From NCBI GenBank assembly GCA_963920705.1, contig OY987240.1:7605676-7669675 (forward strand): a DNA stretch of 64,000 bases. The letters are read 5' to 3'. Of the stretch, positions 18,801 through 45,020 are shown piece by piece (position 1 is the stretch's first letter; every line of letters starts with the position of its first letter). The DNA comes from Odiellus spinosus. Taxonomy: Eukaryota > Arthropoda > Arachnida > Opiliones > Phalangiidae. The notes beneath the pieces are model-generated. The model did no database searches. It was not told where the DNA came from and saw nothing but the letters and a program-made list of their open reading frames with translations. A program made the position numbers and the translations under genes.

Positions 18801-18840
18801 AGACGCCCAGCACTAAACATAGTTCCTGGTACAAAACGAT

Positions 18841-18912
18841 GGTTCCGTCACTGAATCATACACGGGACCACTCGCACCCTAAGCGAGTATTATACCACTA
18901 AACCAACGGACC
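18841..18912 (-). pseudogene. tRNA-Pro(AGG)-like, T arm broken
   Basis: Outermost left copy. Its T arm (GTGTATGATTCAG on the sense strand) no longer pairs and the acceptor is mismatched. The same damage is present in the outermost right copy near 44949-45020, showing that the array borders are inverted duplicates. Confidence 0.75.
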
Positions 18913-19011
18913 TTAATGTATTGAACCCCATCGGCTATCTTACATTTCAAAAGATAGTTACAAAAAGATGCCCAAACTTAAACATGATTCATGGTTATGG
19001 TACAAAGCGAT

Positions 19012-19083
19012 GGGTCCGTCCGGGAATCGAACCCGGGACCACTAGCACCCTAAGCCAGTATTATACCACTAAACCAACGGACC
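19012..19083 (-). tRNA. tRNA-Pro (AGG), compensated anticodon stem
   Basis: Minus-strand copy with intact acceptor, D arm, T arm and C73. The anticodon stem has changed on both sides (CTGGC/GCTAG) and can still pair with one G-U. The best preserved of the minus-strand copies. Confidence 0.7.
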
Positions 19084-19183
19084 CTTGTTGTGTTGAACCC
19101 CATCGGTCTGCTTACATTTCAGAAGATAGTTACAATTAGATGCCCAAACTTAAACATGTTTCATGTTTATGATACAAAACGAC

Positions 19184-19255
19184 TGGTCCGTCCGGGTATC
19201 GAACCTGGGACAACTCGCACCTAAAGCGAGTATTATACCACTAAACCAACGGACC
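19184..19255 (-). pseudogene. tRNA-Pro-derived, anticodon UAG
   Basis: The anticodon loop reads TTTAGGT on the sense strand, putting UAG (a leucine anticodon) at 34-36 in a proline tRNA body. Discriminator would be A. Same variant as 44609-44680, its mirror copy in the right arm. Confidence 0.65.
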
Positions 19256-19342
19256 GTTATTGTGGAGAAACCCATCGGTCAGCTTACATTTCAAAAGATA
19301 GTTATAAAAAGATACCTTTAATTAAGCATGATACAAAGCGAT

Positions 19343-19414
19343 GAGTCCGTCCGGGAATTCAACCCGTGACCACTGGCACCCTAAGCTTGTATTACACCAC
19401 TAACCCAACAGACC
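19343..19414 (-). pseudogene. tRNA-Pro-like, several mismatches
   Basis: Acceptor, anticodon stem and T stem each carry mismatches. Mirror of the copy at 44450-44521 in the opposite arm, but more decayed. Confidence 0.6.
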
Positions 19415-19508
19415 CTTGCTGTGTCGAACCCCATCGGCCAGCATACATTTCAGAAGATAGTTACAATAAGATCCCCAGAACTAACCATGATTCCTAGTAC
19501 AAATCGAT

Positions 19509-19580
19509 GGGTACGTCCGGGAAAAGAACCCGGGACCACTCGCACCCAAAGCGAGTATTACACCACTAAACCAACGAACC
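19509..19580 (-). pseudogene. tRNA-Pro-derived, anticodon UGG, B box lost
   Basis: The loop is TTTGGGT (UGG, the other normal proline anticodon) with a sound stem, but the T loop/B box has become TTCTTTT, so transcription is unlikely. Confidence 0.6.
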
Positions 19581-19673
19581 ATTTTTGTGTTGAACCCCAT
19601 CGGTCAACTTACATTGCAGAAGATAGTTACAATAAGATGCCTAGAACTAAACATGATTCCTGGTACAAAACGA

Positions 19674-20053
19674 TAGTTTCGTCCGGCAAACGAACACGGG
19701 ACCACTCGCACCCAAAGCGAGTAATATACCACTAAACCTGTAGTGAACCCCCTCGGTCAGCTTATATTTCGAAAGATATAGCATAAGATTCCCAAACCTA
19801 AACATGATTCAAGGTTATGGTAAGACGTCGGGTCGAAACCAGGACCAATCGCACCCTAAGCGAGTATTATACCACTAAACCAACGTACCCTTGTTGTGTT
19901 GAACCCCATCGGTCAGCTTACATTTCAGAAGATAGTTACAAAAAGATGCCCAGAAGTAAACATGATTCCTAGTAGAAAACGACGGGTCCGTCCGGGAATC
20001 GAACCCGGACCACCCGCACTCTAAGCGAGTTTTATACCACTAAACCAACCCCT
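19674..20053 (-). pseudogene. Three decayed tRNA-Pro copies
   Basis: Copies at about 19674-19740 (loop TTTGGGT, truncated 5' end), 19822-19890 (AGG loop, T stem damaged) and 19984-20053 (loop TTAGAGT, giving AGA). The strand of the array switches to plus in the following ~90 bp. Confidence 0.6.
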
Positions 20054-20484
20054 AACGATAGTCGTCTTGTATCATGGTTATTTAAGGGTATTTTTTGTAA
20101 CTATCTTCTGCAATGTAAGCTGACCGATGCGGCTGAACATAACAAGGGTCCTTTGGTTTAGTGGTGTAATACTCGCTTAGGGTGCGAGTGGTCCCGGGTT
20201 CAATTCCCGGACGCACCCGTCGTTTTGTATCATAACCATGAATCATGTTAAAGTTTAGGCACCTTATTGTTACTATCTTCTCAAATGTAAGCTCACCGAT
20301 GGGGTTCAACACAACAAGGGTACGTTGGTTTAGTGGTATAATACTCGCTTAGGGTGCGAGTGGTTCCGGGTTCGATTCCCGGACGGACGCGTTGTTTTGT
20401 ACTAGGAATCATGTTTAGTTCTGGGCATCTTATTGTAACTATCTTGTGAAATTTAAGCTGACCGCTGGGGTTCACCACTATAGC

Positions 20485-20556
20485 GGTCCGTTGGTTTAGT
20501 GGTATAATACTCGCTTCGGGTGCGAGTGGTCCCGGGTTCGATTTCCGGACGCACCC
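20485..20556 (+). pseudogene. tRNA-Pro-like, anticodon CGG
   Basis: Anticodon loop TTCGGGT (CGG). The T arm reads TTCGATTTCCGG and the 3' acceptor strand ACGCACC, giving mismatches in both stems. Confidence 0.65.
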
Positions 20557-20653
20557 GTCGTTTTGTATCATAACCATGAATCATGTTAAAGTTTAGGCAC
20601 CTTATTGTAACTATCTTCTGAAATGTAAGCTGACCGATGGGTTTCAACACTGC

Positions 20654-20725
20654 AATGGTCCGTTTTTTTACTGGTATAATACTCGTTTAGGGAGCGAGTG
20701 GTCCCGGGTTCGATTCCCAGACGGA
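20654..20725 (+). pseudogene. tRNA-Pro-like with T7 run in D arm
   Basis: Type example of the variant preceding type 3 spacers: the D arm reads CCGTTTTTTTACTGG instead of CCGTTGGTTTAGTGG. This destroys the A box and puts a seven-T Pol III stop inside the gene. The loop is TTAGGGA. At least ten further copies share it (e.g. near 21145, 21636, 22972, 23463, 24294, 25613, 26609, 31096, 32085). Confidence 0.75.
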
Positions 20726-22135
20726 CCCGTCGTTTTGTATCATGCTTAATTAAGGGCATCTTATTGTAACTATCTTCTGAAATGTAAGCTGACCAATGGG
20801 GTTCAACACTGCAATGGTCCGTTGGTTTAGTGGTGTAATACTCGCTTAGGGTGCGAGTGGTCCCGGGTTCGATTCCCGGACGCACCCGTCGTTTTGTATC
20901 ATAACCATGAATCATGTTAGAGTTTAGGCACCTTATTGTAACTATCTTCTCAAATGTAAGCTCACCGATGGGGTTCAACACAACAAGGGTACGTTGGTTT
21001 AGTGGTATAATACTCGCTTAGGGTGCGAGTGGTCCCTTGTTCGATTCCCGGACGGACCCGTTGTTTTGTACTAGGAATCATGTTTAGTTTTGGGCATCTT
21101 ATTGTAACTATCTTCTGAAATGTAAGCTGACCGATGGGGTTCAACACTGCAATGGTCCGTTTTTTTACTGGTATAATACTCGCTTAGGGAGCGAGTGGTC
21201 CCGGGTTCGATTCCCAGACGGACCCGTCGTTTTGTATCATGCTTAATTAAGGGCATCTTATTGTAACTATCTTCTGAAATGTAAGCTGACCAATGGGGTT
21301 CAACACTGCAATGGTCCGTTGGTTTAGTGGTGTAATACTCGCTTAGGGTGCGAGTGGTCCCGGGTTCGATTCCCGGACGGACCCGTCGTTTTGTACTAGG
21401 AATCATGTTTAGTTCTGGGCATCTTATTGTAACTATCTTCTGAAATGTAAGCTCACCGATGGGGTTCAACACAACAAGGGTACGTTGGTTTAGTGGTATA
21501 ATACTCGCTTAGGGTGCGAGTGGTCCCGGGTTCGATTCCCGGACGGACCCGTTGTTTTGTACTAGGAATCATGTTTAGTTTTGGGCATCTTATTGTAACT
21601 ATCTTCTGAAATGTAAGCTGACCGATGGGGTTCAACACTGCAATGGTCCGTTTTTTTACTGGTATAATACTCGCTTAGGGAGCGAGTGGTCCCGGGTTCG
21701 ATTCCCAGACGGACCCGTCGTTTTGTATCATGCTTAATTAAGGGCATCTTATTGTAACTATCTTCTGAAATGTAAGCTGACCAATGGGGTTCAACACTGC
21801 AATGGTCCGTTGGTTTAGTGGTGTAATACTCGCTTAGGGTGCGAGTGGTCCCGGGTTCGATTCCCGGACGGACCCGTCGTTTTGTACTAGGAATCATGTT
21901 TAGTTCTGGGCATCTTATTGTAACTATCTTCTGAAATGTAAGCTGACCGATGGGGTTCGACACAGCAAGGGTCCGTTGCTTTTGTGGTATAATACTCGCT
22001 TAGGGTGCGAGTGGTCCCAGGTTCGATTCCCGGACGGACCCGTCGTTTTGTACTAGGAATCATGTTTAGTTCTGGGCATCTTATTGTAACTATCTTCTGA
22101 AATGTAAGCTGACCGATGGGGTACAACACTGAAAG

Positions 22136-22207
22136 GGTCCGTTGGTTTAGTGGTATAATACTCGCTTAGGGTGCGAGTGGTCCCGGGTTCGATTCCCGGA
22201 TGGACCC
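22136..22207 (+). tRNA. tRNA-Pro (AGG)
   Basis: Consensus except for one acceptor G-U pair (ATGGACC). TTTT follows. Confidence 0.8.
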
Positions 22208-24623
22208 GTCGTTTTGTACTAGGAATCATGTTTAGTTCTGGGCATCTTATTGTAACTATCTTCTGAAATGTAAGCTGACCGATGGGGTTCAACACAGCAA
22301 GGGTCCGTTGCTTTTGTGGTATAATACTCGCTTAGGGTGCGAGTGGTCTCGGGTTCGATTCCCGGACGGACCCGTAGTTTTGTACTAGGAATCATGTTTA
22401 GTTCTGGGCATCTTATTGTAACTATCTTCTGAAATGTAAGCTGACCGATGGGGTTCAACACAGCAAGGGTCCGTTGCTTTTGTGGTATAATACTCGCTTA
22501 GGGTGCGAGTGGTCCCGGGTTCAATTCCCGGACGCACCCGTCGTTTTGTATCATAACCATGAATCATGTTTAAGTTTAGGCACCTTATTGTAACTATCTT
22601 CTCAAATGTAAGCTCACCGATGGGGTTCAACACAACAAGGGTACGTTGGTTTAGTGGTATAATACTCGCTTAGGGTGCGAGTGGTCCCGGGTTCGATTCC
22701 CGGACGGACGCGTTGTTTTGTACTAGGAATCATGTTTAGTTTTGGGCATCTTATTGTAACTATCTTCTGAAATGTAAGCTGACCGATGGGGTACAACACA
22801 ACAAGGGTACGTTGGTTTAGTGGTATAATACTCGCTTAGGGTGTGAGTGGTCCCGGGTTCGATTCCCGGACGGACCCGTTGTTTTGTACTAGGAATCATG
22901 TTTAGTTTTGGGCATCTTATTGTAACTATCTTCTGAAATGTAAGCTGACCGATGGGGTTCAACACTGCAATGGTCCGTTTTTTTACTGGTATAATACTCG
23001 CTTAGGGAGCGAGTGGTCCCGGGTTCGATTCCCAGACGGACCCGTCGTTTTGTATCATGCTTAATTAAGGGCATCTTATTGTAACTATCTTCTGAAATGT
23101 AAGCTGACCAATGGGGTTCAACACTGCAATGGTCCGTTGGTTTAGTGGTGTAATACTCGCTTAGGGTGCGAGTGGTCCCGGGTTCGATTCCCGGACGGAC
23201 CCGTCGTTTTGTACTAGGAATCATGTTTAGTTCTGGGCATCTTATTGTAACTATCTTCTGAAATGTAAGCTCACCGATGGGGTTCAACACAACAAGGGTA
23301 CGTTGGTTTAGTGGTATAATACTCGCTTAGGGTGCGAGTGGTCCCGGGTTCGATTCCCGGACGGACCCGTTGTTTTGTACTAGGAATCATGTTTAGTTTT
23401 GGGCATCTTATTGTAACTATCTTCTAAAATGTAAGCTGACCGATGGGGTTCAACACTGCAATGGTCCGTTTTTTTACTGGTATAATACTCGCTTAGGGAG
23501 CGAGTGGTCCCGGGTTCGATTCCCAGACGGACCCGTCGTTTTGTATTATGCTCAATTAAGGGCATCTTATTGTAACTATCTTCTGAAATGTAAGCTGACC
23601 AATGGGGCTCAACACTGCAATGGTCCGTTGGTTTAGTGGTGTAATACTCGCTTAGGGTGCGAGTGGTCCCGGGTTCGATTCCCGGACGGAACCGTCGTTT
23701 TGTACTAGGAATCATGTTTAGTTCTGGGCATCTTATTGTAACTATCTTCTGAAATGTAAGCTGACCGATGGGGTTCAACACAGCAAGAGTCCGTTGCTTT
23801 TGTGGTATAATACTCGCTTAGGGTGCGAGTGGTCCCGGGTTCGATTCCCGGACGGACCCGTAGTTTTGTACTAGGAATCATGTTTAGTTCTGGGCATCTT
23901 ATTGTAACTATCTTCTGAAATGTAAGCTGACCGATGGGGTTCAACACAGCAAGGGTCCGTCGCTTTTGTGGTATAATACTCGCTTAGGGTGCGAGTGGTC
24001 CCGGGTTCAATTCCCGGACGCACCCGTCGTTTTGTATCATAACCATGAATCATGTTTAAGTTTAGGCACCTTATTGTAACTATCTTCTCAAATGTAAGCT
24101 CACCGATGGGGTTCAACACAACAAGGGTACGTTGGTTTAGTGGTATAATACTCGCTTAGGGTGCGAGTGGTCCCGGGTTCGATTCCCGGATGGACGCGTT
24201 GTTTTGTACTAGGAATCATGTTTAGTTTTGGGCATCTTATTGTAACTATCTTCTGAAATGTAAGCTGACCGATGGGGTACAACACTGCAAGGGTCCGTTT
24301 TTTTACTGGTATAATACTCGCTTAGGGAGCGAGTGGTCCCGGGTTCGATTCCCAGACGGACCCGTCGTTTTGTATCATGCTTAATTAAGGGCATCTTATT
24401 GTAACTATCTTCTGCAATGTAAGCTGACCGATGGGGTTCAACACTGCAAGGGTCCGTTGGTTTAGTGGTGTAATACTCGCTTAGGGTGCGAGTGGTCCCG
24501 GGTTCGATTCCCGGACGGACCCGTCGTTTTGTACTAGGAATCATGTTTAGTTCTGGGCATCTTATTGTAACATTCTTCTGAAATGTAAGCTGACCGATGG
24601 GGTTCAACACTGCAAGGGTCCGT

Positions 24624-24634
24624 TGGTTTAGTGG
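24624..24634 (+). promoter_or_regulatory. Pol III A box of reference tRNA-Pro
   Basis: TGGTTTAGTGG fits the eukaryotic A-box consensus TRGYNNANNNG. Lost in T7 copies and altered in copies with CTTTTGTGG here. Confidence 0.85.
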
Positions 24635-24666
24635 TATAATACTCGCTTAGGGTGCGAGTGGTCCCG

Positions 24667-24677
24667 GGTTCGATTCC
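24667..24677 (+). promoter_or_regulatory. Pol III B box of reference tRNA-Pro
   Basis: GGTTCGATTCC is a perfect B box (GGTTCGANTCC), the TFIIIC anchor. It is the best-kept part of the unit across the array, including in copies whose A box is gone. Confidence 0.9.
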
Positions 24678-24692
24678 CGGACGGACCCGTCG

Positions 24693-24696
24693 TTTT
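24693..24696 (+). terminator. Pol III TTTT terminator of reference tRNA-Pro
   Basis: T4 begins five bases past the tRNA 3' end (GTCGTTTTG). The same short trailer is present in nearly all units, so each unit can be a separate transcription unit. T4 is at the weak end of effective stops. Confidence 0.75.
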
Positions 24697-26103
24697 GTAC
24701 TAGGAATCATGTTTAGTTCTGGGCAACTTATTGTAACTATCTTCTGAAATGTAAGCTGACCGATGGGGTTCAACACTGCAAGGGTCCGTTGGTTTAGTGG
24801 TATAATACTCGCTTAGGGTGCGAGTGGTCCCGGGTTCGATTCCCAGACGGACCCGTCGTTTTGTACTAGGAATCATGTTTAGTTCTTGGCATCTTATTGT
24901 AACCATCTTCTGAAATGTAAGCTGACCGATGGGGTTCAACACTACAAGGGTCCGTTGGTTTAGTGGTATAATTTTCGCTTAGGGTGCGAGTGGTCCCGGG
25001 TTCGATTCCCGGACGGACCCGTCGTTTTGTACTAGGAATCATGTTTAGTTCTGGGCATCTTATTGTAACTATCTTCTGAAATGTAAGCTGACCGATGGGG
25101 TTCAACACTGTAAGGGTCCGTTGGTTTAGTGGTATAATACTCGCTTAGGGTGCGAGTGGTCCCGGGTTCGATTCCCGGACGGACGCGTCGTTTTGTACTA
25201 GGAATCATGTTTAGTTCTGGGCATCTTATTGTAACTATCTTCTGAAATGTAAGCTGACCGATGGGGTTCAACACTGCAAGGGTACGTTGGTTTAGTGGTA
25301 TAATACTCGCTTAGGGTGCGAGTGGTCCCAGGTTCGATTCCCGGACGGACCCGTCGTTTTGTACTAGGAATCATGTTTAGTTCTGGGCATCTTATTGTAA
25401 CTATCTTCTGAAATGTAAGCTGACCAATGGGGTTCAACACAACAAGGGTACGTTGGTTTAGTGGTATAATACTCGCTTAGGGTGCGAGTGGTCCCGGGTT
25501 CGATTCCCGGACGGACCCGTTGTTTTGTACTAGGAATCATGTTTAGTTTTGGGCATCTTATTGTAACTATCTTCTAAAATGTAAGCTGACCGATGGGGTT
25601 CAACACTGCAATGGTCCGTTTTTTTACTGGTATAATACTCGCTTAGGGAGCGAGTGGTCCCGGGTTCGATTCCCAGACGGACCCGTCGTTTTGTATCATG
25701 CTCAATTAAGGGCATCTTATTGTAACTATCTTCTGAAATGTAAGCTGACCAATGGGGTTCAACACTGCAATGGTCCGTTGGTTTAGTGGTGTAATACTCG
25801 CTTAGGGTGCGAGTGGTCCCGGGTTCGATTCCCGGACGGACCCGTCGTTTTGTACTAGGAATCATGTTTAGTTCTGGGCATCTTATTGTAACTATCTTCT
25901 GAAATGTAAGCTGACCGATGGGGTTCGACACAGCAAGGGTCCGTTGCTTTTGTGGTATAATACTCGCTTAGGGTGCGATTGGTCCCAGGTTCGATTCCCG
26001 GACGGACCCATCGTTTTGTACTAGGAATCATGTTTAGTTCTGGGCATCTTATTGTAACTATCTTCTGAAATGTAAGCTGACCGATGGGGTACAACACTGA
26101 AAG

Positions 26104-26175
26104 GGTCCGTTGGTTTAGTGGTATAATACTCGCTTAGGGTGCGAGTGGTCCCGGGTTCGATTCCCGGACGGACCC
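26104..26175 (+). tRNA. tRNA-Pro (AGG)
   Basis: Consensus sequence; trailer GTAGTTTT instead of GTCGTTTT. Confidence 0.88.
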
Positions 26176-26931
26176 GTAGTTTTGTACTAGGAATCATGTT
26201 TAGTTCTGGGCATCTTATTGTAACTATCTTCTAAAATGTAAGCTGACCGATGGGGTTCAACACAGCAAGGTCCGTCGCTTTTGTGGTATAATACTCGCTT
26301 AGGGTGCGAGTGGTCCCGGGTTCAATTCCCGGACGCACCCGTCGTTTTGTATCATAACCATGAATCATGTTTAAGTTTAGGCACCTTATTGTAACTATCT
26401 TCTTAAATGTAAGCTCACCGATGGGGTTCAACACAACAAGGGTACGTTGGTTTAGTGGTATAATACTCGCTTAGGGTGCGAGTGGTCCCGGGTTCGATTC
26501 CCGGATGGACGCGTTGTTTTGTACTAGGAATCATGTTTAGTTTTGGGCATCTTATTGTAACTATCTTCTGAAATGTAAGCTGACCGATGGGGTACAACAC
26601 TGCAAGGGTCCGTTTTTTTACTGGTATAATACTCGCTTAGGGAGCGAGTGGTCCCGGGTTCGATTCCCAGACGGACCCGTCGTTTTGTATCATGCTTAAT
26701 TAAGGGCATCTTATTGTAACTATCTTCTGCAATGTAAGCTGACCGATGGGGTTCAACACTGCAAGGGTCCGTTGGTTTAGTGGTGTAATACTCGCTTAGG
26801 GTGCGAGTGGTCCCGGGTTCGATTCCCGGACGGACCCGTCGTTTTGTACTAGGAATCATGTTTAGTTCTGGGCATCTTATTGTAACATTCTTCTGAAATG
26901 TAAGCTGACCGATGGGGTTCAACACTGCAAG

Positions 26932-27003
26932 GGTCCGTTGGTTTAGTGGTATAATACTCGCTTAGGGTGCGAGTGGTCCCGGGTTCGATTCCCGGACGGA
27001 CCC
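26932..27003 (+). tRNA. tRNA-Pro (AGG)
   Basis: Consensus copy. The upstream spacer has AACATTCTTC in place of AACTATCTTC. It is the 2315-bp-offset relative of the reference copy at 24617. Confidence 0.9.
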
Positions 27004-27595
27004 GTCGTTTTGTACTAGGAATCATGTTTAGTTCTGGGCAACTTATTGTAACTATCTTCTGAAATGTAAGCTGACCGATGGGGTTCAACACTGCAAGGGT
27101 CCGTTGGTTTAGTGGTGTAATACTCGCTTAGGGTGCGAGTGGTCCCGGGTTCGATTCCCGGACGGACCCGTCGTTTTGTACTAGGAATCATGTTTAGTTC
27201 TGGGCATCTTATTGTAACATTCTTCTGAAATGTAAGCTGACCGATGGGGTTCAACACTGCAAGGGTCCGTTGGTTTAGTGGTATAATACTCGCTTAGGGT
27301 GCGAGTGGTCCAAGGTTCGATTCCCGGACGGACCCGTCGTTTTGTACTAGGAATCATGTTTAGTTCTGGGCATCTTATTGTAACTATCTTCTGAAATGTA
27401 AGCTGACCAATGGGGTTCAACACTGAAAGGGTCCCTTGGTTTAGTGGTATAATACTCGCTTAGGGTGCGAGTGGTCCCGGATTCGATTCCCGGACGGACC
27501 CGTCGTTTTGTACTAGGAATCATGTTTAGTTCTGGGCATCTTATTGTAACATTCTTCTGAAATGTAAGCTGACCGATGGGGTTCAACACTGCAAG

Positions 27596-27667
27596 GGTCC
27601 GTTGGTTTAGTGGTATAATACTCGCTTAGGGTGCGAGTGGTCCCGGGTTCGATTCCCGGACGGACCC
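27596..27667 (+). tRNA. tRNA-Pro (AGG)
   Basis: Consensus copy with the AACATTCTTC spacer variant upstream and TTTT downstream. Confidence 0.9.
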
Positions 27668-27761
27668 GTCGTTTTGTACTAGGAATCATGTTTAGTTCTG
27701 GGCAACTTATTGTAACTATCTTCTGAAATGTAAGCTGACCGATGGGGTTCAACACTGCAAG

Positions 27762-27833
27762 GGTCCGTTGGTTTAGTGGTATAATACTCGCTTAGGGTGC
27801 GAGTGGTCCCGGGTTCGATTCCCGGACGGACCC
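27762..27833 (+). tRNA. tRNA-Pro (AGG)
   Basis: Consensus copy directly following 27596-27667; the upstream spacer has GGGCAACTTATT. Confidence 0.9.
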
Positions 27834-28093
27834 GTCGTTTTGTACTAGGAATCATGTTTAGTTCTTGGCATCTTATTGTAACCATCTTCTGAAATGTAAG
27901 CTGACCGATGGGGTTCAACACTGCAAGGGTACGTTGGTTTAGTGGTATAATACTCGCTTAGGGTGCGAGTGGTCCAAGGTTCGATTCCCGGACGGACCCG
28001 TCGTTTTGTACTAGGAATCATGTTTAGTTCTGGGCATCTTATTGTAACTATCTTCTGAAATGTAAGCTGACCGATGGGGTTCAACACTGCAAG

Positions 28094-28165
28094 GGTCCGT
28101 TGGTTTAGTGGTATAATACTCGCTTAGGGTGCGAGTGGTCCCGGGTTCGATTCCCGGACGGACCC
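28094..28165 (+). tRNA. tRNA-Pro (AGG)
   Basis: Consensus copy in type 1 spacers. Confidence 0.9.
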
Positions 28166-28259
28166 GTCGTTTTGTACTAGGAATCATGTTTGGTTCTGGG
28201 CAACTTATTGTAACTATCTTCTGAAATGTAAGCTGACCGATGGGGTTCAACACTGCAAG

Positions 28260-28331
28260 GGTCCGTTGGTTTAGTGGTATAATACTCGCTTAGGGTGCGA
28301 GTGGTCCCGGGTTCGATTCCCGGACGGACCC
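28260..28331 (+). tRNA. tRNA-Pro (AGG)
   Basis: Consensus copy; the upstream spacer has GTTTGGTTCTGGGCAAC. Confidence 0.9.
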
Positions 28332-29089
28332 GTCGTTTTGTACTAGGAATCATGTTTAGTTCTTGGCATCTTATTGTAACCATCTTCTGAAATGTAAGCT
28401 GACCGATGGGGTTCAACACTACAAGGGTCCGTTGGTTTAGTGGTATAATTTTCGCTTAGGGTGCGAGTGGTCCCGGGTTCGATTCCCGGACGGACCCGTC
28501 GTTTTGTACTAGGAATCATGTTTAGTTCTGGGCATCATATTGTAACTATCTTCTGAAATGTAAGCTGACCGATGGGGATCAACACTGTAAGGGTCCGTTG
28601 GTTTAGTGGTATAATACTCGCTTAGGGTGCGAGTGGTCCCAGGTTCGATTCCCGGACGGACCCGTCGTTTTGTACTAGGAATCATGTTTAGTTCTTGGCA
28701 TCTTATTGTAACCATCTTCTGAAATGTAAGCTGACCGATGGGGTTCAACACTACAAGGGTCGGTTGGTTTAGTGGTATAATTTTCGCTTAGGGTGCGAGT
28801 GGTCCCGGGTTCGATTCCCGGACGGACCCGTCGTTTTGTACTAGGAATCATGTTTAGTTCTGGGCATCTTATTGTAACTATCTTCTGAAATGTAAGCTGA
28901 CCGATGGGGTTCAACACTGCAAGGGTACGTTGGTTTAGTGGTATAATACTCGCTTAGGGTGCGAGTGGTCCAAGGTTCGATTCCCGGACGGACCCGTCGT
29001 TTTGTACTAGGAATCATGTTTAGTTCTGGGCATCTTATTGTAACATTCTTCTGAAATGTAAGCTGACCGATGGGGTTCAACACTGCAAG

Positions 29090-33971: not shown

Positions 33972-35881
33972 GTCGTTTTGTACTAGGAATCATGTTTAGT
34001 TCTGGTCATCTTATTGTAACTATCTTGTGAAATTTAAGCTGACCGCTGGGGTTCACCACTATAGCGGTCCGTTGGTTTAGTGGTATAATACTCGCTTAGG
34101 GAGCGAGTGGTCCCGGGTTCGATTCCCAGACGGACTCGTCGTTTTGTATCATGCTTAATTAAGGGCATCTTATTGTAACTATCTTCTGAAATGTAAGCTG
34201 ACCAATGGGGTTCAACACTGCAAGGGTCCGTTGGTTTAGTGGTGTAATACTCGCTTAGGGTGCGAGTTGTCCCGGGTTCGATTCCCGGACGGACCCGTCG
34301 TTTTGTACTAGGAATCATGTTTAGTTCTGGGCATCTTATTGTAACTATCTTCTGAAATGTAAGCTGGCCGATGGGGTTCAACACAGCAAGGGTCCGTTGC
34401 TTTTGTGGTATAATACTCGCTTAGGGTGCGAGTGGTCCCAGGTTCGATCCCGGACGCACCCGTCGTTTCGTATCATAACCATGAATCATGTTAAAGTTTA
34501 GGCACCTTATTGTAACTATCTTCTCAAATGTAAGCTCACCGATGGGGTTTAACACAACAAGGGTACGTTGGTTTAGTGGTATAATACTCGCTTAGGGTGC
34601 GAGTGGGCCCGGGTTCGATTCCCGGACGGACGCGTTGTTTTGTACTAGGAATCATGTTTAGTTTTGGGCATCTTATTGTAACTATCTTCTGAAATGTAAG
34701 CTGACCGATGGGGTTCAACACCGCAAGGGTGCGTTTTTTTACTGGTATAATACTCCCTTAGGGAGCGAGTGGTCCCGGGTTCGATTCCCAGACGGACCCG
34801 TCGTTTTGTATCATGCTTAATTAAGGGCATCTTATTGTAACTATCTTCTGAAATTTAAGCTGACCAATGGGGTTCAACACTGCAAGGGTCCGTTGGTTTA
34901 GTGGTGTAATACTCGCTTAGGGTGCGAGTGGTCCCGGGTTCGATTCCCGGACGGACCCGTCGTTTTGTACTAGGAATCATGTTTAGTTCTGGGCATCTTA
35001 TTGTAACTATCTTCTGAAATGTAAGCTGACCGATGGGGTTCAACACAGCAAGGGTCCGTTGCTTTTGTGGTATAATACTCGCTTAGGGTGCGAGTGGTCC
35101 CGGGTTCAATTCCCGGACGGACCCGTTGTTTTGTACTAGGAATCATGTTTAGTTCTGGGCATCTTATTGTAACTATCTTGTGAAATTTAAGCTGACCGCT
35201 GGGGTTCACCACTATAGTGGTCCGTAGGTTTAGTGGTATAATACTCGCTTCGGGTGCGAGTGGTCCCGGGTTCGATTCCCGGACGCAGCCGTCGTTTCGT
35301 ATCATAACCATGAATCATGTTAAAGTTTAGGCACCTTATTGTAACTATCTTCTCAAATGTAAGCTCACGGATGGGGTTCAGCACAACAAGGGTACGTTGG
35401 TTTAGTGGTATAATACTCGCTTAGGGTGCGAGTGGTCCCGGGTTCGATTCCCGGACGCACGCGTTGTTTTGTACTAGGAATCATGTTTAGTTTTGGGCAT
35501 CTTATTGTAACTATCTTCTGAAATGTAAGCTGACCGATGGGGTTCAACACTGCAAGGGTCCGTTGGTTTACTGGTATAATACTCGCTTAGGGAGCGAGTG
35601 GTACCGGGTTCGATTCCCAGACGGACCCGTCGTTTTGTATCATGCTTAATTAAGGGCATCTTATTGTAACTATCTTGTGAAATGTAAGCTCACCGATGGG
35701 GTTCAACACAACAAGGGTACGTTGGTTTAGTGGTATAATACTCGCTTAGGGTGCGAGTGGTCCCGGGTTCGATTACCGGACGGACCCGTCGTTTTGTACT
35801 AGGAATCATGTTTAGTTCTGGGCATCTTATTGTAACTATCTTCTGAAATGTAAGCTGACCGATGGGGTGCAACACTGAAAG

Positions 35882-35953
35882 GGTCCGTTGGTTTAGTGGT
35901 ATAATACTCGCTTAGGGTGCGAGTGGTCCCGGGTTCGATTCCCGGACGGACCC
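35882..35953 (+). tRNA. tRNA-Pro (AGG)
   Basis: Consensus copy; partner of 33900-33971 in the 1982-bp repeat. Confidence 0.9.
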
Positions 35954-38029
35954 GTCGTTTTGTACTAGGAATCATGTTTAGTTCTGGTCATCTTATTGTA
36001 ACTATCTTGTGAAATTTAAGCTGACCGCTGGGGTTCACCACTATAGCGGTCCGTTGGTTTAGTGGTATAATACTCGCTTAGGGAGCGAGTGGTCCCGGGT
36101 TCGATTCCCAGACGGACTCGTCGTTTTGTATCATGCTTAATTAAGGGCATCTTATTGTAACTATCTTCTGAAATGTAAGCTGACCAATGGGGTTCAACAC
36201 TGCAAGGGTCCGTTGGTTTAGTGGTGTAATACTCGCTTAGGGTGCGAGTTGTCCCGGGTTCGATTCCCGGACGGACCCGTCGTTTTGTACTAGGAATCAT
36301 GTTTAGTTCTGGGCATCTTATTGTAACTATCTTCTGAAATGTAAGCTGGCCGATGGGGTTCAACACAGCAAGGGTCCGTTGCTTTTGTGGTATAATACTC
36401 GCTTAGGGTGCGAGTGGTCCCAGGTTCGATCCCGGACGCACCCGTCGTTTCGTATCATAACCATGAATCATGTTAAAGTTTAGGCACCTTATTGTAACTA
36501 TCTTCTCAAATGTAAGCTCACCGATGGGGTTTAACACAACAAGGGTACGTTGGTTTAGTGGTATAATACTCGCTTAGGGTGCGAGTGGGCCCGGGTTCGA
36601 TTCCCGGACGGACGCGTTGTTTTGTACTAGGAATCATGTTTAGTTTTGGGCATCTTATTGTAACTATCTTCTGAAATGTAAGCTGACCGATGGGGTTCAA
36701 CACCGCAAGGGTGCGTTTTTTTACTGGTATAATACTCCCTTAGGGAGCGAGTGGTCCCGGGTTCGATTCCCAGACGGACCCGTCGTTTTGTATCATGCTT
36801 AATTAAGGGCATCTTATTGTAACTATCTTCTGAAATTTAAGCTGACCAATGGGGTTCAACACTGCAAGGGTCCGTTGGTTTAGTGGTGTAATACTCGCTT
36901 AGGGTGCGAGTGGTCCCGGGTTCGATTCCCGGACGGACCCGTCGTTTTGTACTAGGAATCATGTTTAGTTCTGGGCATCTTATTGTAACTATCTTCTGAA
37001 ATGTAAGCTGACCGATGGGGTTCAACACAGCAAGGGTCCGTTGCTTTTGTGGTATAATACTCGCTTAGGGTGCGAGTGGTCCCGGGTTCAATTCCCGGAC
37101 GGACCCGTTGTTTTGTACTAGGAATCATGTTTAGTTCTGGGCATCTTATTGTAACTATCTTGTGAAATTTAAGCTGACCGCTGGGGTTCACCACTATAGT
37201 GGTCCGTAGGTTTAGTGGTATAATACTCGCTTCGGGTGCGAGTGGTCCCGGGTTCGATTCCCGGACGCAGCCGTCGTTTCGTATCATAACCATGAATCAT
37301 GTTAAAGTTTAGGCACCTTATTGTAACTATCTTCTCAAATGTAAGCTCACGGATGGGGTTCAGCACAACAAGGGTACGTTGGTTTAGTGGTATAATACTC
37401 GCTTAGGGTGCGAGTGGTCCCGGGTTCGATTCCCGGACGCACGCGTTGTTTTGTACTAGGAATCATGTTTAGTTTTGGGCATCTTATTGTAACTATCTTC
37501 TGAAATGTAAGCTGACCGATGGGGTTCAACACTGCAAGGGTCCGTTGGTTTACTGGTATAATACTCGCTTAGGGAGCGAGTGGTACCGGGTTCGATTCCC
37601 AGACGGACCCGTCGTTTTGTATCATGCTTAATTAAGGGCATCTTATTGTAACTATCTTGTGAAATGTAAGCTGACCGATGGGGTTCAAAACTGCAAGGGT
37701 CCGTTGGTTTAGTGGTGTAATACTCGCTTAGGGTGCGAGTGGTCCCGGGTTCGATTCCCGGACGGACCCGTCGTTTTGTACTAGGAATCATGTTTAGTTC
37801 TGGGCATCTTATTGTAACTATCTTCTGAAATGTAAGCTGACCGATGGGGTTCAACACTGCAAGGGTCCGTTGGTTTAGTGGTTTAATACTCGCTTAGGGT
37901 GCGAGTGGTCCCGGGTTCGATTCCCGGACGGACCCGTCGTTTTGTACTAGGAATCATGTTTAGTTCTGGGCATCTTATTGTAACTATCTTCTCAAATGTA
38001 AGCTCACCGATGGGGTTCAACACAACAAG

Positions 38030-38101
38030 GGTCCGTTGGTTTAGTGGTATAATACTCGCTTAGGGTGCGAGTGGTCCCGGGTTCGATTCCCGGACGGACC
38101 C
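38030..38101 (+). tRNA. tRNA-Pro (AGG)
   Basis: Consensus copy; the upstream spacer carries CTCAAATGTAAGCTCACC (type 2-like). Confidence 0.9.
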
Positions 38102-39838
38102 GTCGTTTTGTACTAGGAATCATGTTTAGTTCTGGGCATCTTATTGTAACTATCTTCTGAAATGTAAGCTGACCGATGGGGTTCAACACTGCAAGGGTCC
38201 GTTGGTTTAGTGGTTTAATACTCGCTTAGGGTGCGAGTGGTCCCGGGTTCGATTCCCGGACGGACCCGTCGTTTTGTACTAGGAATCATGTTTAGTTCTG
38301 GGCATCTTATTGTAACTATCTTCTCAAATGTAAGCTCACCGATGGGGTTCAACACAACAAGGGTCCGTTGGTTTAGTGGCATAATACTCGCTTAGGGTGC
38401 GAGTGGTCCCGGGTTCGATTCCCGGACGGACCCGTCGTTTTGTACTAGGAATCATGTTTAGTTCTGGGCATCTTATTGTAACTATCTTCTGAAATGTAAG
38501 CTGACCGATGGGGCTCAACACTGCAAGGGTCCGTTGGTTTAGTGGTATAATACTCGCTTAGGGAGCGAGTGGACCCGGGTTCGATTCCCAGACGGACCCG
38601 TCGTTTTGTATCATGCTTAATTAAGGGCATCTTATTGTAACTATCTTCTGAAATTTAAGCTGACCAATGGGGTTCAACACTGCAAGGGTCCGTTGGTTTA
38701 GTGGTGTAATACTCGCTTAGGGTGCGAGTGGTCCCGGGTTCGATTCCCGGACGGACCCGTCGTTTTGTACTAGGAATCATGTTTAGTTCTGGGCATCTTA
38801 TTGTAACTATCTTCTGAAATGTAAGCTGACCGATGGGGTTCAACACAGCAAGGGTCCGTTGCTTTTGTGGTATAATACTCGCTTAGGGTGCGAGTGGTCC
38901 CGGGTTCAATTCCCGGACGGACCCGTTGTTTTGTACTAGGAATCATGTTTAGTTCTGGGCATCTTATTGTAACTATCTTGTGAAATTTAAGCTGACCGCT
39001 GGGGTTCACCACTATAGTGGTCCGTAGGTTTAGTGGTATAATACTCGCTTCGGGTGCGAGTGGTCCCGGGTTCGATTCCCGGACGCAGCCGTCGTTTCGT
39101 ATCATAACCATGAATCATGTTAAAGTTTAGGCACCTTATTGTAACTATCTTCTCAAATGTAAGCTCACGGATGGGGTTCAGCACAACAAGGGTACGTTGG
39201 TTTAGTGGTATAATACTCGCTTAGGGTGCGAGTGGTCCCGGGTTCGATTCCCGGACGCACGCGTTGTTTTGTACTAGGAATCATGTTTAGTTTTGGGCAT
39301 CTTATTGTAACTATCTTCTGAAATGTAAGCTGACCGATGGGGTTCAACACTGCAAGGGTCCGTTGGTTTACTGGTATAATACTCGCTTAGGGAGCGAGTG
39401 GTACCGGGTTCGATTCCCAGACGGACCCGTCGTTTTGTATTTAAGGGCATCTTATTGTAACTATCTTGTGAAATGTAAGCTGACCGATGGGGTTCAAAAC
39501 TGCAAGGGTCCGTTGGTTTAGTGGTGTAATACTCGCTTAGGGTGCGAGTGGTCCCGGGTTCGATTCCCGGACGGACCCGTCGTTTTGTACTAGGAATCAT
39601 GTTTAGTTCTGGGCATCTTATTGTAACTATCTTCTGAAATGTAAGCTGACCGATGGGGTTCAACACTGCAAGGGTCCGTTGGTTTAGTGGTTTAATACTC
39701 GCATAGGGTGCGAGTGGTCCCGGGTTCGATTCCCGGACGGACCCGTCGTTTTGTACTAGGAATCATGTTTAGTTCTGGGCATCTTATTGTAACTATCTTC
39801 TCAAATGTAAGCTCACCGATGGGGTTCAACACAACAAG

Positions 39839-39910
39839 GGTCCGTTGGTTTAGTGGTATAATACTCGCTTAGGGTGCGAGTGGTCCCGGGTTCGATTCCC
39901 GGACGGACCC
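39839..39910 (+). tRNA. tRNA-Pro (AGG)
   Basis: Consensus copy; partner of 38030-38101 at offset 1809 bp (1818 less a 9-bp spacer deletion near 39440). Confidence 0.9.
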
Positions 39911-41484
39911 GTCGTTTTGTACTAGGAATCATGTTTAGTTCTGGGCATCTTATTGTAACTATCTTCTGAAATGTAAGCTGACCGATGGGGTTCAACACTG
40001 CAAGGGGCCGTTGGTTTAGTGGTTTAATACTCGCTTAGGGTGCGAGTGGTCCCGGGTTCGATTCCCGGACGGACCCGTCGTTTTGTACTAGGAATCATGT
40101 TTAGTTCTGGGCATCTTATTGTAACTATCTTCTCAAATGTAAGCTCACCGATGGGGTTCAACACAACAAGGGTCCGTTGGTTTAGTGGCATAATACTCGC
40201 TTAGGGTGCGAGTGGTCCCGGGTTCGATTCCCGGACGGACCCGTCGTTTTGTACTAGGAATCATGTTTAGTTCTGGGCATCTTATTGTAACTATCTTCTG
40301 AAATGTAAGCTGACCGATGGGGCTCAACACTGCAAGGGTCCGTTGGTTTAGTGGTATAATACTCGCTTAGGGAGCGAGTGGACCCGGGTTCGATTCCCGG
40401 ACGGATGCGTAGTTTTGTATCATGCTTAATTAAGGGAATCTTTTTGTAACTATCATTTAAAATGTAAGCTGACCGAGGGGGTTCACAACAATAACGCTCC
40501 ATTGGGTTAGTGGTGTAATACACGCTTAGGGTGCGAGTGGTCCAGGGTTCGATTCCCGGACGGATCCGTTGTTTTGTACTAGGAATCATGTTTAGTTTTG
40601 GGCATCTTATTGTAACTATCTTCTGAAATGTAAGCTGACCGATGGGGTTCAACACTGCAAGGGTCCGTTGGTTTACTGGTATAGTACTCGCTTAGGGAGC
40701 GAGTGGTCCCGGGTTCGATTCCCAGACGGAACCGTCGTTTTGTATCATGCTTAATTAAAGGCATCTTATTGTAACTATCTTCTGAAATGTAAGCTGACCG
40801 ATGGGGTTCAACACTGCAAGGGTCCGTTGGTTTAGTGATATAATACTCGCTTAGGGTGCGAGTGGTCCCGGGTTCGAGTCCCGGACGGACCCGTCGTTTT
40901 GTACTAGGAATCATGTTTAGTTCTGTGCATCTTATTGTAACTATCTTCTGAAATGTAAGCTGACCGATGGGGTTCAACACAGCAAGGGTCCGTTGATTTT
41001 GTGGTATAATACTCGCTTAGGGTGCGAGTGGTCCCGGGTTCAATTCCCGGACGGACGCGTTGTTTTGTACAAGGAATCATGTTTAGTTCTGGGCATCTTA
41101 TTGTAACTATCTTCTGAAATGTAAGCTGACCGATGGGGTTCAACACTGCAAGGGTCCGTTGGTTTAGTGATATAATACTCGCTTAGGGTGCGAGTGGTCC
41201 CGGGTTCGATTCCCGGACGGACCCGTCGTTTTGTACTAGGAATCATGTTTAGTTCTGTGCATCTTATTGTAACTATCTTCTGAAATGTAAGCTGACCGAT
41301 GGGGTTCAACACAGCAAGGGTCCGTTGATTTTGTGGTATAATACTCGCTTAGGGTGCGAGTGGTCCCGGGTTCAATTCCCGGACGGACGCGTTGTTTTGT
41401 ACTAGGAATCATGTTTAGTTCTGTGCATCTTATTGTAACTATCTTCTGAAATGTAAGCTGACCGATGGGGTTCAACACAGCAAG

Positions 41485-41556
41485 GGTCCGTTGGTTTAGT
41501 GGTATAATACTCGCTTAGGGTGCGAGTGGTCCCGGGTTCGATTCCCGGACGGACCC
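41485..41556 (+). tRNA. tRNA-Pro (AGG)
   Basis: Consensus copy with trailer GTAGTTTT. Confidence 0.88.
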
Positions 41557-41816
41557 GTAGTTTTGTACTAGGAATCATGTTTAGTTCTGGGCATCTTATT
41601 GTAACTATCTTCTGAAATGTAAGCTGGCCGATGGGGTTCAACACTGCAAGGGTCCGTTGGTTTAGTGATATAATACTCGCTTAGGGTGCGAGTGGTCCCG
41701 GGTTCGATTCCCGGAAGGACCCGTCGTTTTGTACTAGGAATCATGTTTAGTTCTGTGCATCTTATTGTAACTATCTTCTGAAATGTAAGCTGACCGATGG
41801 GGTTCAACACAGCAAG

Positions 41817-41888
41817 GGTCCGTTGATTTAGTGGTATAATACTCGCTTCGGGTGCGAGTGGTCCCGGGTTCGATTCCCGGACGGACCC
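41817..41888 (+). tRNA. tRNA-Pro (anticodon CGG)
   Basis: Loop TTCGGGT, full acceptor, T arm and C73; one D-arm change (TGATTTAGTGG). The best-preserved CGG copy I found. It would decode CCG. Confidence 0.75.
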
Positions 41889-42645
41889 ATCGTTTTGTAT
41901 CATAACCATGAATCATGTTAAAGTTTGGGCATCTTATTGTAACTATCTTCTCAAATGTAAGCTCACCGATGGGGTTCGACACAACAAGGGTTCCGTTGGT
42001 TTAGTGGTATAATACTCGCTTAGGGTGCGAGTGGTCCCGGGTTCGATTCCCGGGCAGACCCGTCGTTTTGTATCATGCTTAATTAAGGGCATGTTATTGT
42101 AACTATCTTTTGAAATGCAAGCTGACCGATGGGGTTCAACACAGCAATGGTCCGTTGGTTTAGTGGTATAATACTCGCTTAGGGTGCGAGTGGTCCCGGG
42201 TTCGATTCCCGGACAGACCCGTCGTTTTGTACTAGGAATCATGTTTAGTTCTGGGGATCTTATTGTAACTATCTACTAAAATTTAAGCTGACCGATGGGG
42301 TTCACCACTACAACGCTCCGTTGGTTTAGTGGTATAATACTCGCTTCGGGTGCGAGTGGTCCCGGGTTCGATTCACGGACGGACCCATCTTTTTGTATCA
42401 TAACCATGAATCATGTTAAGGTTTGGGCACCTTATTGTAACTATCTTCTCAAATGTAAGCTCACCGATGGGGTTCGACACAACAAGGGTACGTTGGTTTA
42501 GTGGTATAATACTCGCTTAGGGTGCGAGTGGTCCCGGGTTCGATTCCCGGGCAGACCCGTCGTTTTGTATCATGCTTAATTAAGGGCATCTTATTGTAAC
42601 TATCTTTTGAAATGCAAGCTGACCGATGGGGTTCAACACAGCAAT

Positions 42646-42717
42646 GGTCCGTTGGTTTAGTGGTATAATACTCGCTTAGGGTGCGAGTGGTCCCGGGTTC
42701 GATTCCCGGACGGACCC
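42646..42717 (+). tRNA. tRNA-Pro (AGG)
   Basis: Consensus copy preceded by GCAAT rather than GCAAG. Confidence 0.9.
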
Positions 42718-42970
42718 GTCGTTTTGTACTAGGAATCATGTTTAGTTCTTGGCATCTTATTGTAACTATCTTCTGAAATGTAAGCTGACCGATGGGGTTC
42801 AACCCAGCAAGGGTCCGTTGGTTTAGTGGTATAACACTCGCTTAGGGTGCGAGTGGTCCCGGGTTCGATTCCCGGACGGAACCGTAGTTTTGTATCATGC
42901 TTATTTAAGGGAATCTTTTTGTAACTATTATTTAAAATGTAAGCTGACCGAGGGGGTTCACAACAATAAC

Positions 42971-43042
42971 GCTCCTTTGGGTTAGTGGTATAATACACGC
43001 TTAAGGTGCGAGTGGTCCCGGGTTCGATTCCCGGACGGATAA
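42971..43042 (+). pseudogene. tRNA-Pro-derived, anticodon AAG
   Basis: Loop TTAAGGT gives AAG (leucine); the anticodon stem CACGC/GCGAG has an A-A mismatch and the 3' end reads CGGATAAG, so the acceptor fails. A sister copy with the same loop is at about 44118-44189. Confidence 0.65.
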
Positions 43043-43958
43043 GGTGTTTTGTACTAGGAATCATGTTTAGTTCTGGGCATCTTATTGTAACTATCTTCTG
43101 AAATGTAAGCTGACCGATGGGGTTCAACACTGCAAGGGTGCGTTGGTTTAGTGGTATAATACTCGCTTAGGGAGCGAGTGGACCCGGGTTCGATTCCCAG
43201 ACGGACCCGTCGTTTTGTATCATGCTTAATTAAGGGCATCTTATTGTAACTATCTTCTGAAATGTAAGCTGACCGATGGGGTTCAACACAGCTATGGTCC
43301 GTTGGTTTAGTGGTATAATACTCGCTTAGGGTGCGAGTGGTCCCGGGTTCGATTCCCGAACGGACCCGTCGTTTTGTACTAGGAATCATGTTTAGTTCTG
43401 GGCATCTTATTGTAACTATCTACTGAAATTTAAGCTGACCGATGGGGTTCACCACTACAACGCTCTGTTGGTTTAGTGGTATAATACTCGTTTCGGGTGC
43501 GAGTGGTCCCGGGTTCGATTCACGGACGGACCCATCGTTTTGTATCATAACCATGAATCATGTTAAAGTTTGGGCACCTTATTGTAACTATCTTCTCAAA
43601 TGTAAGCTCACCGATGGGGTTCGACACAACAAGGGTACGTTGGTTTAGTGGTATAATACTCGCTTAGGGTGCGAGTGGTCCCGGGTGCGATTCCCGGGCA
43701 GACCCGTCGTTTTGTATCATGCTTAATTAAGGGCATCTTATTCTAACTATCTTTTGAAATGCAAGCTGACCGATGGGGTTCAACACAGCAATGGTCCGTT
43801 GGTTTAGAGGTATAATACTCGCTTAGGGTGCGAGTGGTCCCGGGTTCGATTCCCGGACGGACCCGTCGTTTTGTACTAGGAATCATGTTTAGTTCTTGGC
43901 ATCTTATTGTAACTATCTTCTGAAATGTAAGCTGACCGATGGGGTTCAACCCAGCAAG

Positions 43959-44030
43959 GGTCCGTTGGTTTAGTGGTATAATACTCGCTTAGGGTGCGAG
44001 TGGTCCCGGGTTCGATTCCCGGACGGACCC
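43959..44030 (+). tRNA. tRNA-Pro (AGG)
   Basis: Consensus copy with trailer GTAGTTTT; one of the last intact copies before the right border. Confidence 0.9.
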
Positions 44031-44449
44031 GTAGTTTTGTATCATGCTTAATTAAGGGAAACTTTTTGTAACTATTATTTAAAATGTAAGCTGACCGAGG
44101 GGGTCCACAACAATAACGCTCCGTTGGGTTAGTGGTATAATACACGCTTAAGGTGCGAGTGGTCCCGGGTTCGATTCCCGGACGGATAAGGTGTTTTGTA
44201 CTAGGAATCATGTTTAGTTCTGGGCATCTTATTGTAACTATCTTCTGAAATGTAAGCTGACCGATTTGGTTCAACACAGCAAGGGTCCGTTGCTTTTGTG
44301 GTATAATACTCGCTTAGGGTGCGAGTGGTCCCGGGTTCGATTCCCGGACGGACCCGTTGTTTTGTACTAGGAATCATGTTTATTTCTGGGCAACTTATTG
44401 TAACTATCTTCTGAAATTTAAGCTGACCGCTGGGGTTCACCAATATGAC

Positions 44450-44521
44450 GGTCCGTTGGTTTAGTGGTATAATACTCGCTTCGGGTGCGAGTGGTCACGG
44501 GTTCAATTCCCGGACGGACTC
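44450..44521 (+). tRNA. tRNA-Pro-like (CGG), border copy
   Basis: Loop TTCGGGT; acceptor closes with G1-U72; one T-stem mismatch (CACGG). Inside the right inverted arm. Confidence 0.5.
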
Positions 44522-44608
44522 GTCGTTTTGTATCATGCTTAATTAAAGGTATCTTTTTGTAACTATCTTTTGAAATGTAAGCTGACCGATGGGTTTCTGC
44601 ACAATAAC

Positions 44609-44680
44609 GGTCCGTTGGTTTAGTGGTATAATACTCGCTTTAGGTGCGAGTTGTCCCAGGTTCGATACCCGGACGGATCA
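44609..44680 (+). pseudogene. tRNA-Pro-derived, anticodon UAG
   Basis: Loop TTTAGGT with an intact CTCGC/GCGAG stem; the acceptor and T stem each have mismatches (ACGGATC, CCAGG). Mirror of 19184-19255. Confidence 0.65.
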
Positions 44681-44780
44681 GTCGTTTTGTATCATAAACA
44701 TGAATCATGTTTAAGTTTGGGTATCTAATTGTAACTATCTTCTGAAATGTAAGCTGACCGATGGGGTTCAATACAACAAG

Positions 44781-44852
44781 GGTCCGTTGGTTTAGTGGTA
44801 TAATACTCGCTTAGGGGGCGAGTGATCCCGTGTTCGATTCCCGGACGGACCC
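44781..44852 (+). tRNA. tRNA-Pro (AGG), border copy
   Basis: Acceptor fully paired; loop TTAGGGG, one T-stem change (CCGTG). Trailer ATCGCTTT lacks a clean T4. Mirror of 19012-19083. Confidence 0.55.
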
Positions 44853-44948
44853 ATCGCTTTGTACCATGACCATGAATCATGTTTAAGTTTGGGCATCTTT
44901 TTGTAACTATCTTTTGAAATGTAAGATAGCCGATGGGTTCAATACATA

Positions 44949-45020
44949 AAGGTCCGTTGGTTTAGTGGTATAATACTCGCTTAGGGTGCGAGTGGTCCCG
45001 TGTATGATTCAGTAACGGAA
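44949..45020 (+). pseudogene. tRNA-Pro(AGG)-like, T arm broken
   Basis: Last right-hand copy, with the same T-arm damage (GTGTATGATTCAG) as 18841-18912. Confidence 0.75.

Follow-up and report, generated by a model that had tools for sequence, protein, structure and literature searches.

A tandem array of 159 tRNA-Pro copies in Odiellus spinosus, probably a satellite derived from a tRNA gene

Introduction

Twenty-seven tandem copies of a tRNA-Pro gene are described from chromosome 1 of Arabidopsis thaliana, and tRNA-Pro clusters are described from many plants (PMC11700998, PMC12652284, PMC12308677). Maize is described as carrying 28 tRNA-Ile genes in a tandem array (PMC12652284, PMC11700998), and the size given for plant clusters of neighbouring tRNA genes ranges from two to 110 genes (PMC12652284). 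The SYY cluster of Arabidopsis is reported to be active in root cap cells but silent in most tissues, and when it is deleted, the accumulation and stability of a transgenic glycoprotein rich in serine, tyrosine and proline are reported to change (PMC12308677). A survey of 2010 describes tRNA tandem repeats as so far reported only from Entamoeba histolytica (PMC2888827). A tRNA sequence can also be borne by a mobile element, such as Helenus, which is described as a terminal-repeat retrotransposon in miniature with two long terminal repeats and, between them, a primer-binding site and a polypurine tract (PMC10886601). Tandem tRNA arrays may persist because they raise dosage, or they may simply arise as repeats turn over. 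The array analysed here, which bears on both possibilities, lies in a stretch of 64,000 nucleotides from Odiellus spinosus (Arthropoda, Arachnida, Opiliones; GenBank assembly GCA_963920705.1, contig OY987240.1, positions 7,605,676 to 7,669,675 of the forward strand). This stretch is called the window, and positions are counted from its first nucleotide. The array consists of 159 copies of tRNA-Pro and is probably a satellite derived from a tRNA-Pro gene, with a large minority of its copies intact.

Organization of the array

When the window is searched with nhmmer, using the 72-nt consensus as a query (--max, E up to 1e-3), 159 copies of tRNA-Pro are detected, all of them inside 18841-45021, and none in the rest of the 64-kb window. 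Eight copies are located on the minus strand (18841-20049) and 151 on the plus strand (~20147-45021). Tandem Repeats Finder (TRF) gives a period of 166 bp with 150.8 copies at 20095-45032, together with a three-unit period of 491 bp, and detects the 166-bp period in the inverted part (18768-20049) as well. The parts of the array are as follows.

20095..45032, plus strand: main array, in which 151 units follow one another head to tail (most of them 166 bp long, others 159 or 172 bp), each with a 72-nt tRNA-Pro and a ~94-bp spacer (TRF, nhmmer, unit lengths)
18768..20049, minus strand: inverted left end with 8 tRNA-Pro units, which carry many private changes (TRF, nhmmer)
20050..20094, no strand: short junction separating the two head-to-head arrays (sequence)
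24617..24688, plus strand: a tRNA-Pro(AGG) copy identical to the consensus, given as an example, 59.3 bits in Rfam (consensus match, fold, Rfam)

Of the 150 spacings between plus-strand copies, 100 are 166 bp, 28 are 159 bp and 16 are 172 bp, and the other six are 150-173 bp. Three spacer types match the three spacing lengths and are interleaved along the array, six of the 151 units being left untyped. The periods reported by TRF inside the array are 166, 331 and 491 bp, with no short-period repeat among them. A degenerate pattern for a 60-nt core is matched exactly at 35 places in the window, as compared to a mean of 0.00 over 100 shuffled sequences.

ARAGORN detects 151 tRNAs within the array. 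Of these, 145 are tRNA-Pro (133 AGG, 11 CGG and 1 TGG), and the remaining six are called as tRNA-Leu (five) and tRNA-Ser (one), all at array positions. Counts of tRNA genes can be inflated by one satellite, as these 145 calls illustrate. Rfam gives 154 tRNA matches in the window at the gathering score, and eight of the 150 listed are tRNA-Ala. The number of array copies that reach this score is 145 or 146 of 159, depending on the placement of a ninth tRNA-Ala match (32.8 bits).

These results agree with the initial annotation, which was made from the letters of the window and estimated about 160 copies of a ~166-bp unit, each with a 72-nt tRNA-Pro, at 18841-45020. The inversion of the first eight copies is absent from it. 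It also regarded the array as a satellite rather than a family of short interspersed elements, and this view holds for the 64 kb searched: no tRNA-Pro is found outside the array, the spacer has a single match elsewhere in the window (20 bases, E 0.63), and a family of short interspersed elements is therefore disfavoured.

Outside the window, a spacer pattern and a degenerate tRNA-Pro pattern have no match among viral contigs, and the tRNA-Pro pattern has none among prokaryote genome contigs, as expected for a eukaryotic sequence. When an antisense open reading frame of the array (194 aa) is used as a protein query for the same satellite, none of 823 candidates reaches E <= 0.001. We regard the antisense open reading frames as open by chance in a repeated sequence.

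Integrity of the tRNA-Pro copies

The consensus unit is composed of a 72-nt tRNA-Pro(AGG) and a 94-nt spacer, and contains an A box, a B box, C73 and TTTT. The patterns used for the A and B boxes are the textbook forms. The consensus tRNA is exactly conserved in 20 of the 159 copies, and the number of distinct tRNA sequences is 88, such that expression could be tested variant by variant. All 20 scored stem pairs are intact in 50 copies, and at least one is broken in the other 109. The consensus A box is present in 111 copies, the consensus B box in 142 and both in 96. TTTT is found within 30 nt downstream of 148 copies, and C73 is kept in 153. The anticodon is AGG in 140 copies, CGG in 11, TGG in two and another in six. 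When all these tests are combined (20 stem pairs, both boxes, TTTT, C73 and an NGG anticodon), 44 of 159 copies pass. Complete copies therefore exist, as the initial annotation stated, but its figure of at least 19 is low. When an exact copy is folded at minimum energy, the acceptor, anticodon and T arms are formed, but the weak D arm is not. The energy of this fold is -29.3 kcal/mol (z -2.20), and 6 of 200 shuffled sequences fold as well. From these structures, we infer that a quarter (44/159, all tests) to a half (79/159, at least 50 bits in Rfam among the matches listed, counted by hand) of the copies may be transcribable by RNA polymerase III.

The consensus differs from human tRNA-Pro-TGG-3-1 (PMC12217144) at 12 of 72 sites. 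Six of these differences are located in stems, where they form three fully compensated pairs, and the other six, including the wobble base, are located in loops or at single-stranded positions. The founder of the array was probably a real, working tRNA-Pro gene, because all six stem differences from the human gene are compensated.

Sequence change in the tRNA and the spacer

The numbers of changes per site were estimated by parsimony on a FastTree tree of all 159 whole units. They are 2.71 for the tRNA and 2.38 for the spacer (unstratified Mann-Whitney p 0.13). When the sites are matched by their consensus base, the tRNA exceeds the spacer by 0.004 changes per site (permutation p 0.51), and the ratio is 1.00 with a 95% confidence interval of 0.74-1.36. 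The comparison is unchanged when CpG sites are left out (difference -0.03). When the last six columns are left out as well, the difference is 0.42 (p 0.14 for a higher value in the tRNA). Within the tRNA, stem sites have undergone 3.20 changes per site and the other sites 2.09. The B box, with 2.73 changes per site, changes no more slowly than the spacer.

Pairing is not clearly preserved by the changes in stems. Of 64 types of single stem change, 14 preserve the pair (expected fraction 0.195), as do 31 of 236 cells, and of nine types of two-sided change three preserve it. Over the distinct tRNA sequences, the number of paired cells is 1606, as compared to 1602.0 +/- 2.9 after shuffling, and 56 of 500 shuffles give a number as high. 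Of the ten stem variants that are common in the array, none keeps the pair, which counts against selection. Within the array, little constraint on the tRNA appears to be visible from these comparisons.

The consensus A box is lacking in 48 of 159 copies, 30 of which belong to families of at least two identical tRNAs. One A-box-defective variant with five changes occurs nine times. Amplification looks blind to function, because A-box-defective tRNAs were themselves amplified.

Growth of the array and its inverted end

On the plus strand, 113 of the 151 units are distinct. When offsets of 1-39 are compared, an identical unit recurs most often at a distance of 11 or 12 units. Exact repeats reach a length of 1993 bp at most, with an offset of 1982 bp. 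Thus the array has a trait of satellites, namely tandem monomers with higher-order exact duplications of 11-12 units. The most homogeneous part is formed by 15 units from ~27.6 kb, which differ from the consensus by 1.20 positions in the tRNA and 1.73 in the spacer per unit. For the 15 units from 42.5 kb, these values are 3.40 and 12.67. The duplicated block and the flanks are as follows.

33698..37672, plus strand: perfect tandem duplication of a 1982-bp block of ~12 units (1993-bp exact repeat)
15674..18767, minus strand: left flank, which copies the right flank in inverted orientation and is made of repeat blocks that recur elsewhere in the window (self-BLAST)
45033..49627, plus strand: right flank, the partner of the left flank, in which part of the block is present once more in diverged form (self-BLAST, sequence)

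Two inverted matches are detected by self-BLAST, one between 17040-20049 and 46864-43798 (87.7% identity) and the other between 15958-17981 and 49474-47422 (81.3%). In a global alignment with gaps not counted, the identity between the inverted arms is 90.7% for the array part and 92.8% for the adjoining flank. When the inverted units are numbered m1-m8 and the plus-strand units p1-p151, m5-m7 best match p148-p150 in this order, and m8 matches p151 marginally (0.178, with 0.183 for the next unit). The units m1-m4 match interior copies, outside this order. In the four pairs m5-m8/p148-p151, the tRNAs differ at 8, 1, 5 and 1 of 72 sites, and the spacers at 4/87, 4/100, 3/99 and 31/108 sites, the last spacer extending into the flank. 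The right end, with the array edge and its flank, was probably duplicated in inverted orientation, because the edge units m5-m8 match p148-p151 together with the flank; the interior would have turned over afterwards.

A near-palindromic motif is present at 45872 and 47426, where a repeat block with further copies in the window begins. It is possibly the end of an element.

Other features of the window

A tandem array of tRNA-Ala with CGC and TGC anticodons is located at 8665-10645, ~8 kb from the tRNA-Pro array, with further partial copies between its members. Nine tRNA matches are found in it by Rfam (E up to 0.01) and six by ARAGORN. Two different tRNA genes became tandem repeats in this window. 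The conversion of a tRNA gene into a tandem repeat is not peculiar to proline in this region, because this second array lies so near.

A broken hAT-type transposase is present in several frames at 62556-63991 on the minus strand. Its fragment at 63152-63991 (a 279-aa frame) gives 76 protein matches, and those named by species come from ants, a longhorn beetle and the pea aphid. Dimer_Tnp_hAT is matched by a neighbouring frame. Such relatives fit an arthropod host, though weakly, as transposons can pass from one species to another. At 2340-4137 on the minus strand, pieces resembling an ionotropic receptor are recognized by eye, and the match to Lig_chan-Glu_bd is below threshold (Pfam E 0.091). 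A protein search with this receptor-like gene gives 1920 candidates, none of them with E <= 10. A second copy of the segment 2326-2955, 74% identical, lies at 5909-6514. TRF detects ~42 copies of a 14-bp unit at 12576-13161, with 96% matches. The segments 61415-61727 and 62040-62356 form an inverted pair with 90% identity, perhaps a foldback element, and 61162-61415 matches 1726-1978 in inverted orientation with 94.5% identity.

Origin of the array

The sequence shows that the consensus is intact, that the units run head to tail, that blocks of several units are exactly duplicated, that the spacer types are mixed and that the right end, together with its flank, is present a second time in inverted orientation. 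The origin that we consider probable for these traits is a satellite. A tRNA-Pro(AGG) gene together with ~94 bp of its own flanks would have become the satellite unit. Unequal exchange or slippage would then have spread the units regardless of whether a copy works, and the copies would have decayed about as fast as the spacer. Such an array most likely has no specific selected function. By analogy with the tRNA clusters of Arabidopsis, it would probably be silenced in the manner of repeat chromatin, and any tRNA produced from it would be a by-product. The view of the initial annotation, that the units are potentially working genes, may hold for the 44 structurally complete copies. It is weak as an account of what the array is for, because the tRNA and the spacer change equally on the whole-unit tree, stem changes do not clearly preserve pairing and promoter-defective copies have been amplified.

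Several results weigh against this origin. The comparison of the tRNA and the spacer depends on the tree: a spacer-only tree gives 3.65 changes per site for the tRNA and 2.17 for the spacer, while a tRNA-only tree gives 2.38 and 5.24 respectively, and exchange between copies violates the assumption of a tree whichever is used. The A box has undergone somewhat fewer changes per site than the spacer (1.82 vs 2.38, significance not computed). Moreover, a lack of constraint on each copy may be compatible with selection on total dosage.

The frequency spectrum of the variants is a further point of this kind. When the sites are matched by base, the density in the tRNA is 2.04 times that in the spacer for variants found in one copy, a ratio reached in none of 3000 permutations. 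The ratio is 1.06 for variants found in two copies, 1.83 for those in 3-5 copies (p 0.014) and 0.51 for those in at least six copies (p 0.008). When the variants in at least three copies are pooled, it is 0.90 and not significant. The ratio for common variants stays at 0.52 (p 0.024) when the spacer columns 81-111 are dropped. By our own count, 25 of the 44 tRNA singletons are located in the eight inverted copies. The skew persists, however, in a core set of 141 units, from which these eight units and the plus-strand units 1-4 and 146-151 are removed: in this set, the tRNA and the spacer have 29 and 15 singletons and 15 and 34 common variants respectively (Fisher p 0.0009). This skew leaves room for weak selection and may result from weak selection against the spread of variants that damage the tRNA. 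It may instead result from a faster recent mutation of the tRNA, or from old spacer types that inflate the number of common spacer variants. For transcription-linked mutation as the cause of the singleton excess, neither a gradient in the flanks nor a strand bias is seen in the variant lists, which were inspected by eye only.

Alternative explanations

The chief alternative, which we consider unlikely, is that the array is a dosage battery of specialised tRNA-Pro genes for a tissue that makes a proline-rich secreted protein. The SYY cluster and the tandem repeats of silk-gland tRNA-Ala, as described in PMC12308677, are precedents for such a battery. The 44 complete copies, the neighbouring tRNA-Ala array and the depletion of common variants in the tRNA are consistent with it, but the equal change of the tRNA and the spacer on the whole-unit tree, the amplification of promoter-defective variants and the broken stem pairs of 109 copies argue against it. 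A more specific form of this explanation, also unlikely, has the array transcribed as a tRNA-Pro(AGG) battery under weak selection at the level of the array. Variants that damage the tRNA would arise freely but rarely reach many copies, and the battery, with the tRNA-Ala array, would increase the tRNA supply for a secreted protein rich in proline and alanine in some tissue. The AGG anticodon is read as IGG.

A role as a chromatin element, in which many B boxes recruit TFIIIC and thereby form a boundary, a heterochromatin seed or a part of a centromere, is quite unlikely. The consensus B box and A box are retained in 142 and 111 copies respectively, and the unit length of 159-172 bp, being close to one nucleosome repeat, might be linked to the nucleosome, but the B box changes no more slowly than the spacer (2.73 vs 2.38 changes per site). 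A human tRNA tandem repeat is described as binding CTCF and is proposed to be a boundary (PMC4041453), which is in favour of such a role.

It is very unlikely that the array is the cargo of a mobile or foldback element with the inverted flanks as its arms. The flanks are inverted copies of each other over several kilobases and are made of blocks that recur in the window, as this explanation would have it. However, the other copies of these blocks in the window have no adjoining tRNA-Pro, and none of the five flank frames that were scanned (16334-16867, 17367-17753, 46179-46568, 18168-18434 and 45415-45681) has a Pfam transposase match. The duplication of edge tRNA units together with the flank is equally explained by an inverted segmental duplication.

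That the copies were multiplied, collapsed or inverted by the assembler is hardly credible, because 113 of the 151 plus-strand units are distinct, the longest exact repeat of ~2 kb is shorter than typical long reads and the window contains no ambiguous bases, although long tandem arrays are hard to assemble, the 1993-bp repeat is exact and the true copy number may differ from 159. A chimeric foldback read is disfavoured, because the inverted arms differ by ~7-12%.

Comparison with known systems

Like other tandem arrays of a single isoacceptor, the Odiellus array is composed of one tRNA gene with its own flanks, repeated head to tail. The initial annotation regarded an array of this size as unusual. 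This is so for the copy number, and no animal tRNA-Pro array of comparable size was noticed in a search of the open-access literature, but the array is less isolated in kind, since tRNA-Pro arrays are reported from plants (PMC11700998, PMC12652284). These plant arrays, as described, are likewise tandem repeats of one tRNA-Pro gene and are the closest precedent, but the Odiellus array has 159 copies in units of 159-172 bp. The SYY cluster is described as a tandem tRNA array that has grown by duplication of a core and contains variant and pseudogene copies, as does the Odiellus array. However, its repeat decodes serine and tyrosine, its tRNA-Tyr genes contain introns and its expression has been demonstrated (PMC12308677). 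The tRNA-Ala genes of the Bombyx silk gland are described in PMC12308677 as insect tRNA genes in tandem repeats, but they are tissue-specific and for alanine, while the sequence of the Odiellus array specifies proline, though a small tRNA-Ala array lies nearby.

Entamoeba also has its tRNA genes in tandem arrays, but these are described as including almost all tRNA genes of E. histolytica, with up to five genes per unit and short tandem repeats between the genes (PMC2652664). The Odiellus array has one tRNA per unit, a single isoacceptor and no short-period repeat detected by TRF. The human tRNA repeat at 1q23.3, which varies in copy number, is another tandem array of tRNA genes in an animal, but it is described as having 9-43 units of 7.3 kb, with tRNA genes making up <6% (PMC4041453), in contrast to the 166-bp units with a 72-bp gene in Odiellus. 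The satellites of Harttia catfish contain sequences derived from tRNA genes as well, but they are described as mostly complex mixtures of SINE, LINE (long interspersed element) and tRNA sequences (PMC11955569), while the Odiellus unit is a whole tRNA gene with a spacer. The Odiellus array is set apart from the known arrays by its copy number, its minimal unit and its higher-order blocks, and also in that the tRNA and the spacer do not clearly differ in how much they have changed.

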